Shown here piece by piece: positions 4,052 to 13,320 of a stretch of DNA of 24,193 bases; positions within the stretch are counted from its first letter, which is position 1, and the number at the start of each line of letters is the position of its first letter. Below the pieces are notes generated by a model. The model saw only the letters and a program-made list of their open reading frames with translations, made no database searches and was not told the DNA's origin. This DNA comes from a virus. The stretch lies in the IMG/VR virus record IMGVR_UViG_3300027759_000415, positions 1-24,193 of that record. One strand, given 5' to 3'. The position numbers and the translations under genes were made by a program.

Positions 4052-4230
4052 GTTTGATTAGAATAATCTAGACTTTCTTCCATTGTTCCATCTTCAATAT
4101 CCAATACTGCATCCTTTAACAACTCATAAGTCTCTTCCAAATCAAAACTAGAACTTAATGAATATGTCCCATCTTTGTAAGCAGACACAGCAACCATGCC
4201 GAGTAGGTTTGGGTCTTTTTCTTTAGTCAT
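4042..4230 (-). CDS. Hypothetical protein, 62 aa
   Basis: Not recognised. The product begins MTKEKDPNLLGMVAVSAYKDG and continues with an acidic helical part (DLEETYELLKDAVLDIEDG). It is soluble and small. I chose the ATG that overlaps the DNA polymerase stop by one base (TGATG) over an in-frame ATG 18 bases upstream, because one-base and four-base overlaps dominate this operon; the purine-rich GAAAGAGA upstream may be its ribosome binding site. Its 3' end forms part of a 14-base direct repeat that also builds a promoter. Confidence 0.65.
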   Translation of the reverse strand: MTKEKDPNLLGMVAVSAYKDGTYSLSSSFDLEETYELLKDAVLDIEDGTMEESLDYSNQTLQ

Positions 4231-5879
4231 CAATGTGTCTCTTTCCATGAGTTACCTACCTTGTATTCTCCGTCCAGAGGACAGCGCATTTTTAACACTA
4301 TACCAGCTTCTTTGATTGCTTGCTTACCTAACTGACCTACTTCTTCTGCACGACTTTCTTCTACTTCTATTTGCCATTCATCGTGAACATTAGCAACTAT
4401 TTTAAACTCTATCTTTGATTGACGTAGCTTTCTGTGCAAAATAACAACAGCTTGCTTCATAACGATTGCACCAGCGCCTTGCAGTAGCGTGTTGAGCGCC
4501 GAGTGTTCTGCACGAACGAGTAACTTGCGTCCGTCAAGACCCGGTAGCCATCCTTCTTTAGCGTAGATACGAGCCACTTTCTCTCTAAGAGCTTTAAGTT
4601 TCGGCGTATTTCGTAGAAAAGAATCAATGAGCTTTTGTCCTTCTTTCGCAGAACCTCCAACAATCGACCCGATTTTGGAACTTCCAGCGCCATAGAGGAA
4701 AGCATAGATAAACGTCTTAGCTTGATTCCTCGTTTGCAACCCAGCAGCGGTTTGGTTCGCTGTGTGGATGTCGCCCGATACAACTTCATGTGTATATACA
4801 TTGTCGTTCATATAGTGAGCCAACATTCTCAACTCCAGTCCTGAAGCATCAATGCCAACTAACTTATATCCTTTCTCTACAATCCATAAATCCCGACACT
4901 CGTGTCCGTAAGGACTACCGCTGTTAGGAACCTGTGCCATGTTAGGCTTCATGTGCGTCATACGACCTGTAACAGCGCCGTTGGTGATGACACGACCATG
5001 AACCCTTCCGTCCTTGCCAAGAGCTTCTAGCCAGCTATCAATCTGTGCTATCCGCTTTTGCAACATCATGTACTCTGCTAAGGTTTTTGCTTCTGGGAAG
5101 TCGAGGCTTTCGAGCGTGGTTTCGTCGACGATGACCGACCCTTTTTCTGTAAACTTGTTAGGCTTCCACCCCTTTTCGGTGAGTCTTTCGGCAATTTGCT
5201 GCCGACTGCCGGGATTGAACGGCTCGATGATGTCTTTGAGCGGTTTCCCTGACGTTTTGTGAACTCTTCCAGTGGTGACTTTATCGGGGAAGATGATTGC
5301 CATTTCAACCTGAATAGCGTCCAACTTAGTTTTAAGTATAGATAGTAGTTGTAAAGCCCCAGCTTCATTGAGTTTAAAACCGTTTCTTTCTTGCTCCGCA
5401 ACGATGATTGCAACCTCGTGTTCGAGCGTGATACTTTCTTTTGAATAGTCATTCTTCATCTCCTGAGTTAAATGTTCATATAACTTCTTTGTTACCAATG
5501 TATCTTGAATACAATACTCTTCCATCTCCTTTGACCAACCACTATCAAAGTCTGTGAACTCACCTTTAGCAAACCCTAAGCGTTGTCCCCAAGCAGCAAG
5601 GCTGTGTCCGTCTTCCAAGCTAGGGTTATACAACCTAGACAACACTAGCGTATCGACTACTTGTGACTTTCTAACAGTAACACCCCAAACTCGTTTCAAC
5701 ACTGGGAAGTCAAAGAAGATGCCGTTGTGTGCCACAATTTCAGTTGCGTTGTTAATGTAAGTCTGTAACAACTCAGGAGTCTTAAAAGTAAACCATTCAT
5801 CTGTATCAATATTCCTAGTAACAACACACCAAATCTTGTCGTGTGCTAGGTTAGTTTCGATGTCAAGAATTATCCTCAT
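4230..5879 (-). CDS. DNA polymerase, family A with 3'-5' exonuclease domain
   Basis: A replicative T7 gp5-like polymerase of 549 residues. Proofreading domain: ILDIET (D6, E8), NGIFFDFP (D57), YCIQD (D126). Polymerase domain: GAVTGRMTHMKPNMAQVP (301-318), motif A VGIDASGLELR (D344), motif B RNQAKTFIYAFLYG (R384, K388, Y392) and motif C VHDEWQ (H499, D500, E501). All catalytic residues are present, and Tyr at 392 matches T7. It is about 150 residues shorter than T7 gp5. Between residues about 198 and 221, where T7 carries the thioredoxin-binding loop, only a short connector is present. The gene overlaps its neighbours at both ends. Confidence 0.96.
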   Translation of the reverse strand: MRIILDIETNLAHDKIWCVVTRNIDTDEWFTFKTPELLQTYINNATEIVAHNGIFFDFPVLKRVWGVTVRKSQVVDTLVLSRLYNPSLEDGHSLAAWGQRLGFAKGEFTDFDSGWSKEMEEYCIQDTLVTKKLYEHLTQEMKNDYSKESITLEHEVAIIVAEQERNGFKLNEAGALQLLSILKTKLDAIQVEMAIIFPDKVTTGRVHKTSGKPLKDIIEPFNPGSRQQIAERLTEKGWKPNKFTEKGSVIVDETTLESLDFPEAKTLAEYMMLQKRIAQIDSWLEALGKDGRVHGRVITNGAVTGRMTHMKPNMAQVPNSGSPYGHECRDLWIVEKGYKLVGIDASGLELRMLAHYMNDNVYTHEVVSGDIHTANQTAAGLQTRNQAKTFIYAFLYGAGSSKIGSIVGGSAKEGQKLIDSFLRNTPKLKALREKVARIYAKEGWLPGLDGRKLLVRAEHSALNTLLQGAGAIVMKQAVVILHRKLRQSKIEFKIVANVHDEWQIEVEESRAEEVGQLGKQAIKEAGIVLKMRCPLDGEYKVGNSWKETH

Positions 5880-9621: not shown

Positions 9622-9650
9622 TTGACAACTTTTAAAAAATTCATTACAAT
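9622..9650 (+). promoter_or_regulatory. Near-consensus sigma-70 promoter facing rightward
   Basis: TTGACA (9622-9627), 17-base spacer, TACAAT (9645-9650). The -35 box is perfect and the -10 box has five of six matches. The promoter reads toward the 3' ends of the minus-strand genes at 9743-12529, so any transcript is antisense to them. Predicted initiation is near 9656-9658, exactly where a hairpin begins. Confidence 0.6.
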
Positions 9651-9655
9651 GCCTT

Positions 9656-9685
9656 AACAACATAGACTATCGTTAGATTGTTGTT
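9656..9685 (+). other. Hairpin at the predicted start of the rightward transcript
   Basis: AACAACA (9656-9662) and TGTTGTT (9679-9685) are perfect inverted repeats around a 16-base loop, followed by TT and A. It could be a weak terminator, a 5' stem of a short RNA, or a protein site. The U-run after it is short, so a terminator call is not firm. Confidence 0.35.
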
Positions 9686-9742: not shown

Positions 9743-9991
9743 TTAGCGTTCCTCCCAGTATTCATCAACATCATCGTTATCATAGTCTTCTATGTAATCT
9801 CCGTCATCATCTAGCAACTCACCATTCCCAGTATCGCCCTCACTAATCAAGTCATGCCTTACCTGTATAGGTATATAAGCATCAACTGATTTTAAGCAAG
9901 TCGAACACATCTCCAAGAATTGCCTTGTTATGCCATGCCTTACAGTAGATTCATAGTCGTTTAATGCTGTATTGCAACAAATACATCTCAT
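9743..9991 (-). CDS. Small zinc-binding phage protein with acidic tail, 82 aa
   Basis: The N-terminus carries CICC at residues 3-6 and CSTC at 29-32, a typical four-cysteine zinc knuckle, with an intervening YESTVRHGITRQFLEMC segment. The last 30 residues are almost all Asp, Glu and Tyr (DDDGDYIEDYDNDD). Similar short proteins starting MRCI.C.. occur in many T7-like and pelagiphage-like genomes; their function is not known to me. The acidic tail could mimic DNA. AGAAGGG lies before the ATG. A 5-base-pair hairpin (10006-10019) sits in its leader. Confidence 0.75.
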   Translation of the reverse strand: MRCICCNTALNDYESTVRHGITRQFLEMCSTCLKSVDAYIPIQVRHDLISEGDTGNGELLDDDGDYIEDYDNDDVDEYWEER

Positions 9992-10058: not shown

Positions 10059-10157
10059 CTATAAAGCCTGTCCTATGGCTCGCAATAGCCAAATCATAAC
10101 CTGTGTATAGACTACAATGCCAGCCAGCCAATAAAACCAAGTATAGTGATTATTCAT
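10059..10157 (-). CDS. Micro-protein with one membrane helix, 32 aa
   Basis: The translation is MNNHYTWFYWLAGIVVYTQV followed by MIWLLRAIGQAL. It is a single hydrophobic, tryptophan- and tyrosine-rich segment with a basic residue near the end, suited to the inner membrane. Its ATG overlaps the stop of the preceding 49-residue gene in ATGA, the same coupling used by most genes here. Because it is short, the call rests on that overlap and on composition. It could modulate host membrane functions or be non-functional. Confidence 0.45.
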   Translation of the reverse strand: MNNHYTWFYWLAGIVVYTQVMIWLLRAIGQAL

Positions 10158-10303
10158 AGTGGCGAACAATTAACATACTTGCCATCATTACAAATAATAC
10201 ATACCTGAGAACCATTAGGACTGTCTATAATGACTGTCTTACAGGCGGAATAGGCAAAGCCTGACAATGTTAAACCAACTGCGATTAAGAATGTTTTAAG
10301 CAT
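10154..10303 (-). CDS. Small secreted cysteine-containing protein, 49 aa
   Basis: The N-terminus MLKTFLIAVGLTLSGFAYSA is a textbook signal peptide: one lysine, a hydrophobic core and an A-Y-S-A cleavage region. The mature part of about 30 residues has four cysteines (C21, C35, C38, C46), including a CIIC pair. The cysteine after the cleavage region is not in a good lipobox, so a periplasmic disulfide protein is more likely than a lipoprotein. It starts 19 bases before the end of the sigma-like gene, with GAGGA upstream. A role against superinfection or in the cell envelope is possible but unproven. Confidence 0.55.
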   Translation of the reverse strand: MLKTFLIAVGLTLSGFAYSACKTVIIDSPNGSQVCIICNDGKYVNCSPL

Positions 10304-10434
10304 GATAGTAATTCCTCATAAGTGATGTTGTGTTTTAATAATTCAATTCTTATCTTTTTAAGTGCGGACTGCTCCAACTGGCTAACCCTTTGGTGACTGA
10401 TACCAAGCGCAGCCGCAACCTCTTCTAACCTCAT
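10285..10434 (-). CDS. Stand-alone sigma-70 region 4-like HTH protein, 49 aa
   Basis: The first 34 residues are LEEVAAALGISHQRV, then SQLEQSALKKIRIEL. This follows the region 4.2 helix-turn-helix of sigma-70 factors, where the usual pattern is LEE(V/I)...(G/S)..R(V/I)RQIE..AL.KLR. In sigma factors this piece reads the -35 element and contacts the beta flap of RNA polymerase. Here nothing else of a sigma factor is attached; a short tail (KHNITYEELLSCLKHS) follows. The ATG directly abuts the upstream TAG, with AGGGG six bases before it. It could redirect or inhibit host RNA polymerase, or act as a small repressor. The homology call is strong, the function is inferred. Confidence 0.7.
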   Translation of the reverse strand: MRLEEVAAALGISHQRVSQLEQSALKKIRIELLKHNITYEELLSCLKHS

Positions 10435-10731
10435 CTATGCCCCTATATTAAGTAGTTTAAAATGCTCCGCCATAAATTGAGTCGTCGACGTTTTTTGTTT
10501 ACGGTTTAACTCTTGAGCGATATCGTCGCCGCCTATATTTTTAATCCATCCATAACCATACCATTGTAATTGTCGGTCATGCCATATTACCTCAAGGCAA
10601 TTCTCGCCCCAAGATACGCTAACGGCTTTCCCGTCGCCTTTTATAGCGTTGTCAATACATCCCATAACTTGCTTTTTACTTGGCTTACGATTGTGAAATT
10701 GATATTCTACAATTTGGTGTAATGTACTCAT
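10435..10731 (-). CDS. Hypothetical protein, 98 aa
   Basis: Not recognised. The product starts MSTLHQIVEYQFHNRKPSKK and has a central VSVSWGENCLEVIWHDRQLQWYGYGW stretch that looks like a tryptophan-rich beta sheet, followed by a helical end. I chose the ATG at 10731 because GGAGG lies eight bases before it; the frame is open to 10758 but that part overlaps the preceding 29-residue gene. The stop TAG is directly followed by the ATG of the sigma region 4-like gene, so the two are co-expressed. Confidence 0.7.
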   Translation of the reverse strand: MSTLHQIVEYQFHNRKPSKKQVMGCIDNAIKGDGKAVSVSWGENCLEVIWHDRQLQWYGYGWIKNIGGDDIAQELNRKQKTSTTQFMAEHFKLLNIGA

Positions 10732-10732
10732 T

Positions 10733-10822
10733 TTAAAATCCTCCGGTGCGATAAACATAAATTAAGAGCGGCAGTGTAAAGCATAGCAGCCCGACTAAAC
10801 AACCTTGTAAAAACTTAATCAT
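10733..10822 (-). CDS. Micro-protein with one membrane helix, 29 aa
   Basis: The translation begins MIKFLQGCLVGLLCFTLPLL and ends IYVYRTGGF: one transmembrane helix flanked by a lysine and an arginine. AAGGGG lies six bases before the ATG. It fills the gap between the 243-residue gene and the next gene exactly, and the next gene's ribosome binding site is inside its last codons. A signal-anchor function in the inner membrane is likely. No family is recognised. Confidence 0.5.
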   Translation of the reverse strand: MIKFLQGCLVGLLCFTLPLLIYVYRTGGF

Positions 10823-12722: not shown

Positions 12723-12737
12723 ATAGAAACAACATAG
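12723..12737. repeat. 15-base direct repeat, copy 1 (ATAGAAACAACATAG)
   Basis: Identical to the copy at 12818-12832, 95 bases apart. A shorter AACAACATAG core also appears at 9656-9665 in the other regulatory gap. Confidence 0.6.
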
Positions 12738-13117: not shown

Positions 13118-13146
13118 TTGACAGAATCACAAAAGTATGCTAAAAT
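13118..13146 (+). promoter_or_regulatory. Strong sigma-70 promoter for the packaging/virion operon
   Basis: TTGACA (13118-13123), 17-base spacer, TAAAAT (13141-13146) with an extended TGC just before it. The match is close to ideal for bacterial RNA polymerase. It lies about 200 bases before the small terminase gene, leaving a long leader. Confidence 0.75.
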
Positions 13147-13186
13147 CGCTTTACAAGTGAAAAGCACACAATAAAGATACTGTACA

Positions 13187-13320
13187 GTCCCCTTCGGGAC
13201 GACAAGTTATAGCGCCCTGTAGCAAGGGGAACAACAGCCAACAGGCGTTCCCCTCTCCGATAGCGAACAACGAATCTTCCGATAGCACTCTATAGTACTT
13301 ATAGGGCTTTAATTTTTTTA
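13187..13320 (+). promoter_or_regulatory. Structured leader, possible attenuator before the small terminase gene
   Basis: Stems seen: GTCCC/GGGAC with a 4-base loop (13187-13200); AGGGGAAC/GTTCCCCT (13225-13232 with 13247-13254); GCCCTGTAG (13214-13222) pairing with TTATAGGGC (13299-13307) with two G-U pairs, followed by TTTAATTTTTTTA. The CGCCCTGT at 13213-13220 could instead pair with ACAGGCG at 13241-13247. A stem followed by a T-run upstream of the first gene is the layout of a transcription attenuator. Confidence 0.4.

Follow-up and report, generated by a model that had tools for sequence, protein, structure and literature searches.

A widespread family of tiny phage proteins matching the C-terminal half of sigma region 4: candidate DNA-binding regulators

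The virus record analysed here, a stretch of 24,193 bases that we call the window, carries on its minus strand (10285..10434) a micro-gene whose 49-residue product corresponds to the C-terminal half of sigma region 4 only, comprising H3-turn-H4-H5. The micro-gene is a real, conserved member of a widespread family of tiny phage proteins, and with it a single odd open reading frame becomes a defined microprotein family (H3-turn-H4-H5, no region 4.1) found across many uncultivated phages and easily overlooked or misannotated as sigma factors. The family members are most likely small DNA-binding transcription regulators. For the product encoded in the window, we put it at slightly better than even that it regulates transcription as a small protein binding DNA sequence-specifically, with its origin in sigma region 4.2. 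If the family does bind DNA or RNA polymerase, its members would count among the smallest regulators of transcription and put a minimal region 4 to the test as a specific reader of DNA.

The homology was assessed by profile searches against sigma region 4 and helix-turn-helix (HTH) families. The full product, MRLEEVAAALGISHQRVSQLEQSALKKIRIELLKHNITYEELLSCLKHS, matches Pfam Sigma70_r4 (PF04545) over positions 23-49 of the 50-position profile with 31.9 bits and an E-value of 9.7e-8, exceeding the gathering cut-off of 24.1 bits. The matched segment is the HTH proper (residues 3-30, LEEVAAALGISHQRVSQLEQSALKKIRI, 10345..10428, minus strand). PHROG_351, ‘RNA polymerase sigma factor’, matches at E 2e-6, models of RpoH, FliA and RpoS match at E-values of about 1e-6 to 1e-4, and a match to HTH_3 barely reaches the cut-off for that family. 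The original prediction described the product as almost entirely a region 4.2-like HTH without other sigma domains; this holds for the HTH and for the other domains, but a conserved C-terminal helix lies beyond the HTH at residues 39-48, corresponding to sigma helix H5. The family profile aligns with residues 32-72 of the 73-residue region 4 of Taq SigA, through its last helix, and with residues 296-337 of 338 in RpoS, nearly to the C-terminus. Considered as a member of the region 4 domain family, the product has the profile match and the HTH fold with H5, and lacks H1-H2 (region 4.1); considered as a functional sigma factor, the 49-residue protein lacks region 2, which binds core RNA polymerase and −10 DNA. 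The gapless alignment to the RpoS tail raised the question of descent from RpoS specifically, but scores for RpoH and SigA equal or exceed those for RpoS, so no particular sigma can be named as the source. Overall, the product resembles sigma-70 region 4 (Taq SigA, RpoH, the RpoS C-terminus) in HTH sequence, predicted fold and alignment through H5, and differs from sigma-70 in having neither region 4.1 (H1, H2) nor regions 1-3.

An AlphaFold2 model based on a 33-row alignment has a mean pLDDT of 90.4, with helices at residues 3-10, 14-34 and 39-48, and the five models gave similar confidence. It supersedes a first model built from the ten close relatives only, which had no proper HTH and no match in the PDB. 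When the PDB was searched with Foldseek, sigma region 4 ranked first, including the −35 DNA complex 1ku7, with probabilities of 0.89-0.97 and TM-scores by query mostly of 0.66-0.75; the E-values were weak (0.6-0.9), as expected because the query is only 49 residues long. Structural comparison also brought up, as a weak match only, UPF0122-type proteins (1s7o, 1xsv), which similarly have a DNA-binding-type HTH and no other sigma domains, but are cellular, about 105 residues long and built on a larger domain. In a VIA-align comparison, chains of HU and of homeodomains scored level with sigma, at a Z of about 4, below the level that the tool states to be informative. The tie with HU, together with the replication genes that are constant neighbours of the micro-gene, would suit a DNA-binding protein that serves the replication module in some way other than transcription, for instance by marking the origin, by packaging or by coating DNA as nucleoid proteins do. 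The HU matches are matches of shape only, however, and the sequence profiles place the protein among sigma region 4 domains and regulators of transcription, so that we regard such a role as rather improbable.

The open reading frame predicted at 10285-10434 is present and encodes 49 residues; its strand (minus), which the prediction did not give, is added here. Its neighbours are arranged as claimed. Upstream lies a 107-residue gene with no assigned function (10435..10758, minus strand), whose TAG stop codon (10435-10437) immediately precedes the ATG of the micro-gene (10432-10434). Downstream, a gene for a 49-residue Cys-containing peptide with a signal-like N-terminus (10154..10303, minus strand) overlaps the micro-gene by 19 nt; its counterpart overlaps in nine of ten relatives, and profile searches with the peptide gave no family match. 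The left side of the window carries genes for DNA polymerase, primase-helicase, exonucleases and single-stranded DNA-binding protein on the minus strand, and the right side carries terminase, portal and major head protein genes on the plus strand. The micro-gene sits in the early/replication operon, agreeing with its predicted place in the early module, and throughout the window clade it lies shortly upstream of the primase-helicase. Two further features of this module may be recorded. An 82-residue CxxC protein (MRCICCNTALNDYE...; 9743-9991, minus strand) is strongly conserved beside the micro-gene and has no confident family. A separate DNA polymerase exonuclease subunit (phrog_403) accompanies a DNA polymerase that has kept a match of its own to an exonuclease profile (1258-1995 and 4230-5879, minus strand).

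A scan of viral contigs recovered ten relatives (L001-L009 and L054), all on uncultivated phage contigs and 71-94% identical to the micro-gene. A scan of genome contigs gave zero true relatives, its sole match being an unrelated one of 19 residues, and tblastn against named phages found no close relative; the gene is absent from four cultured phages whose replication genes are distantly related, as well as from Pf-WMP3. Within the ten relatives pN/pS is 0.15 for the HTH part and 0.22 for the whole micro-gene, values obtained with synonymous sites near saturation, and the recognition segment SHQRVSQL is invariant. The micro-gene is under purifying selection. The start codon stands exactly at the HTH in nine of the ten relatives, with an in-frame stop 0-9 codons upstream, so region 4.1 is, as a rule, not encoded. 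In L007 and L009 the few codons ahead of the start could have been a remnant of region 4.1; this was dismissed, as they include no start codon and amount to only 8-9 residues. The start either adjoins a stop codon upstream of it or overlaps it, with an overlap of no more than 11 nt, in all relatives except the tenth, L054, in which the HTH is fused to an unrelated Cys-rich N-terminal extension. The identity of the upstream gene varies among relatives. This variable context and the small size of the gene might be taken to indicate a chance open reading frame or a decayed, functionless remnant of a sigma gene, but the selection test contradicts this, as do the conserved start and length and the invariant SHQRVSQL, and we find the idea hardly credible. 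Conservation in related genomes, proposed as a check on the prediction, is thus borne out. In passing, we see that a Cys-rich segment, MYPCKTPCGDIDCxxSC, occurs within the HTH open reading frame in L054 (1929-2144) and within a neighbouring one in L004 (7714-8004), next to a gene resembling a DNA methylase.

Searching with a profile built from the clade brings up additional stand-alone proteins in other phages, including L017/L031, L061/L132 and a branch in which about 10-20 residues precede an MTQQEVAD segment. The wider family comprises about 65 distinct sequences, mostly of 43-65 residues counted from a plausible start; the sample is biased by the seed pattern MTQQEVA, and the 66 loci are a floor for one branch and no census. 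Its alignment is nearly gapless internally, from the HTH to an acidic-hydrophobic C-terminal helix (EDL/DFF type) that, from its sequence, is equivalent to sigma helix H5, and 31 of 34 family representatives match Sigma70_r4 at E<=0.001. The genes adjoin those for helicase, DNA polymerase or methylase, in early/replication neighbourhoods. One relative carries a tandem pair of sigma-4-like micro-genes with an ATGA overlap (L007:1279-1607), and in another close relative, L013, the gene is missing from this position and a different sigma-4-like HTH open reading frame lies just upstream of the primase-helicase; both arrangements fit a trans-acting regulator that is indifferent to exact position. 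Small phage proteins with Sigma70_r4 are already present in databases, annotated by domain and without a functional study that we could find. They include a 43-residue example in MW202753 (UOF81603.1), annotated ‘RNA polymerase sigma factor cnrH’, and several of 47-75 residues in BFVD (A0A6J5LV43, A0A6J5LCA9, A0A6J7WNB9). Like the micro-gene product, these proteins of 43-75 residues stand alone and have the same HTH and a similar C-terminal part, but they belong to different phages and are about 35-43% identical to it. In the literature searched, a body that leaves out most subscription journals, we found no description of a family without region 4.1, nor of its spread or its diversified recognition helix.

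Within the family the HTH scaffold is nearly invariant (E5, A7, G11, A24, K27, L32), and the base-reading positions 14, 15, 18 and 19 differ between subfamilies while being fixed within the window clade. A DNA-binding domain whose specificities diverge, each towards its own target, would be expected to show this pattern. The residues that we take to read bases in sigma-70, R584, E585, R588 and Q589, correspond in the micro-gene product to H/Q/S/Q. The product may occupy the −35 position, as originally predicted, but because R584/E585/R588 are H/Q/S, the canonical −35 hexamer is no obvious target.

The main rival to a DNA-binding regulator builds on the original proposal: a decoy, appropriator or retargeting factor acting on host RNA polymerase, whose H5-like helix would dock on the tip of the beta flap while its HTH touches DNA near −35, so that sigma region 4 is displaced or has to compete. 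Of the helices of region 4 in sigma-70, H3 and H4 read the −35 element, and contacts to the flap are found in and near H1, H2 and H5 (PMC2988021). The family aligns with Taq SigA and RpoS through H5 to the end of the chain, and H5 makes contact with the flap tip (PMC2988021). The interface is moreover often targeted by phages, as shown by Xp10 P7 (PMC3985653) and T4 gp33 (PMC7892883). However, H1 and H2, which make much of the flap contact, are missing from the aligned family, which weakens the idea of a beta-flap decoy although H5 remains; the H5-like stretch is also short, and might just as well serve for dimerisation. We therefore consider docking on RNA polymerase unlikely, though it deserves to be taken seriously. 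A broader version, in which a detached region 4.2 with H5 has been carried repeatedly by phages of aquatic bacteria and attaches to the RNA polymerase of the host, either alongside sigma's own region 4 or instead of it, giving the holoenzyme a new upstream specificity through a phage-specific recognition helix, seems to us a doubtful proposition. Small phage proteins do act at the interface of sigma region 4 and the beta flap, namely T4 AsiA, T4 gp33 and Xp10 P7 (PMC2988021, PMC7892883, PMC3985653), but none is described in those papers as a homologue of sigma region 4.2, and gp33 is structurally unrelated to sigma region 4 (PMC7892883).

The reading that we prefer, a DNA-binding regulator, starts from the C-terminal half of a sigma region 4 (H3-turn-H4-H5). 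The protein would be made at an early stage, its translation coupled to that of its neighbours in the replication operon, and its HTH would bind promoter or operator DNA of the phage, or possibly of the host. In this way it would tune transcription by the host RNA polymerase, in the simplest form as a Cro-like repressor rather than an activator, possibly as a dimer held together by the long H4/H5 helices. Two points count against a regulator of this kind: a 49-residue domain without region 4.1 may be only marginally stable on its own, and the H5-like helix is also compatible with docking on RNA polymerase. A candidate operator, proposed on the basis of sequence, is a 28-bp conserved non-coding element, TAACAACATAGACTATCGTTAGATTGTT (9655..9682, plus strand), which is kept in most relatives. 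It is partly repeated, its AACAACATAG core recurring at 12728 and 12823, and in five relatives (L002, L004, L005, L006, L008) a second copy of the core lies about 62 bp away. As a separate observation, the 28-bp element directly follows a near-consensus sigma-70 promoter, TTGACA-17-TACAAT, that runs antisense to the early genes (promoter and element together 9622-9682, plus strand).

The polymerase that such a regulator would act upon is presumably that of the host. As originally claimed, the window shows no phage-type RNA polymerase, and a search that covered the window plus two longer relatives and used pelagiphage HTVC200P and roseophage CRP-804 as positive controls was negative; the absence rests on this controlled search, and a search of 24 contigs without a working positive control was set aside. 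Sigma70_r2 was likewise sought in the window and in 26 related or family-bearing phage contigs and gave no match, many of these contigs being fragments in which a divergent partner could escape. This bears on the suggestion that the protein supplies region 4 to a split sigma factor whose region 2 protein is encoded elsewhere in the phage. Such a factor exists in Bacillus, where in SigO-RsoA a separate polypeptide carries sigma region 4 (PMC8103513), as here; but unlike that system no region 2 partner was found, and the late promoter is of canonical sigma-70 type, making a split sigma factor very unlikely.

The late promoter, TTGACA-N17-TAAAAT with a TG extension (13118..13146, plus strand), is conserved in eight relatives with an invariant −35 element, and is of host sigma-70 type. 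Given its perfect TTGACA and extended −10, host sigma-70 should suffice for it unaided. The promoters had been predicted to look host-like, which is right for this conserved late promoter, but a search of the window for early promoters recognised nothing consistent. A part for the micro-gene product in setting the early-to-late switch, as originally suggested, is a conjecture. Just downstream of the late promoter, at about 13180-13205 on the plus strand, a stem-like sequence, CAGTCCCCTTCGGGACGAC, shows few changes in all aligned relatives and is a possible leader RNA structure.
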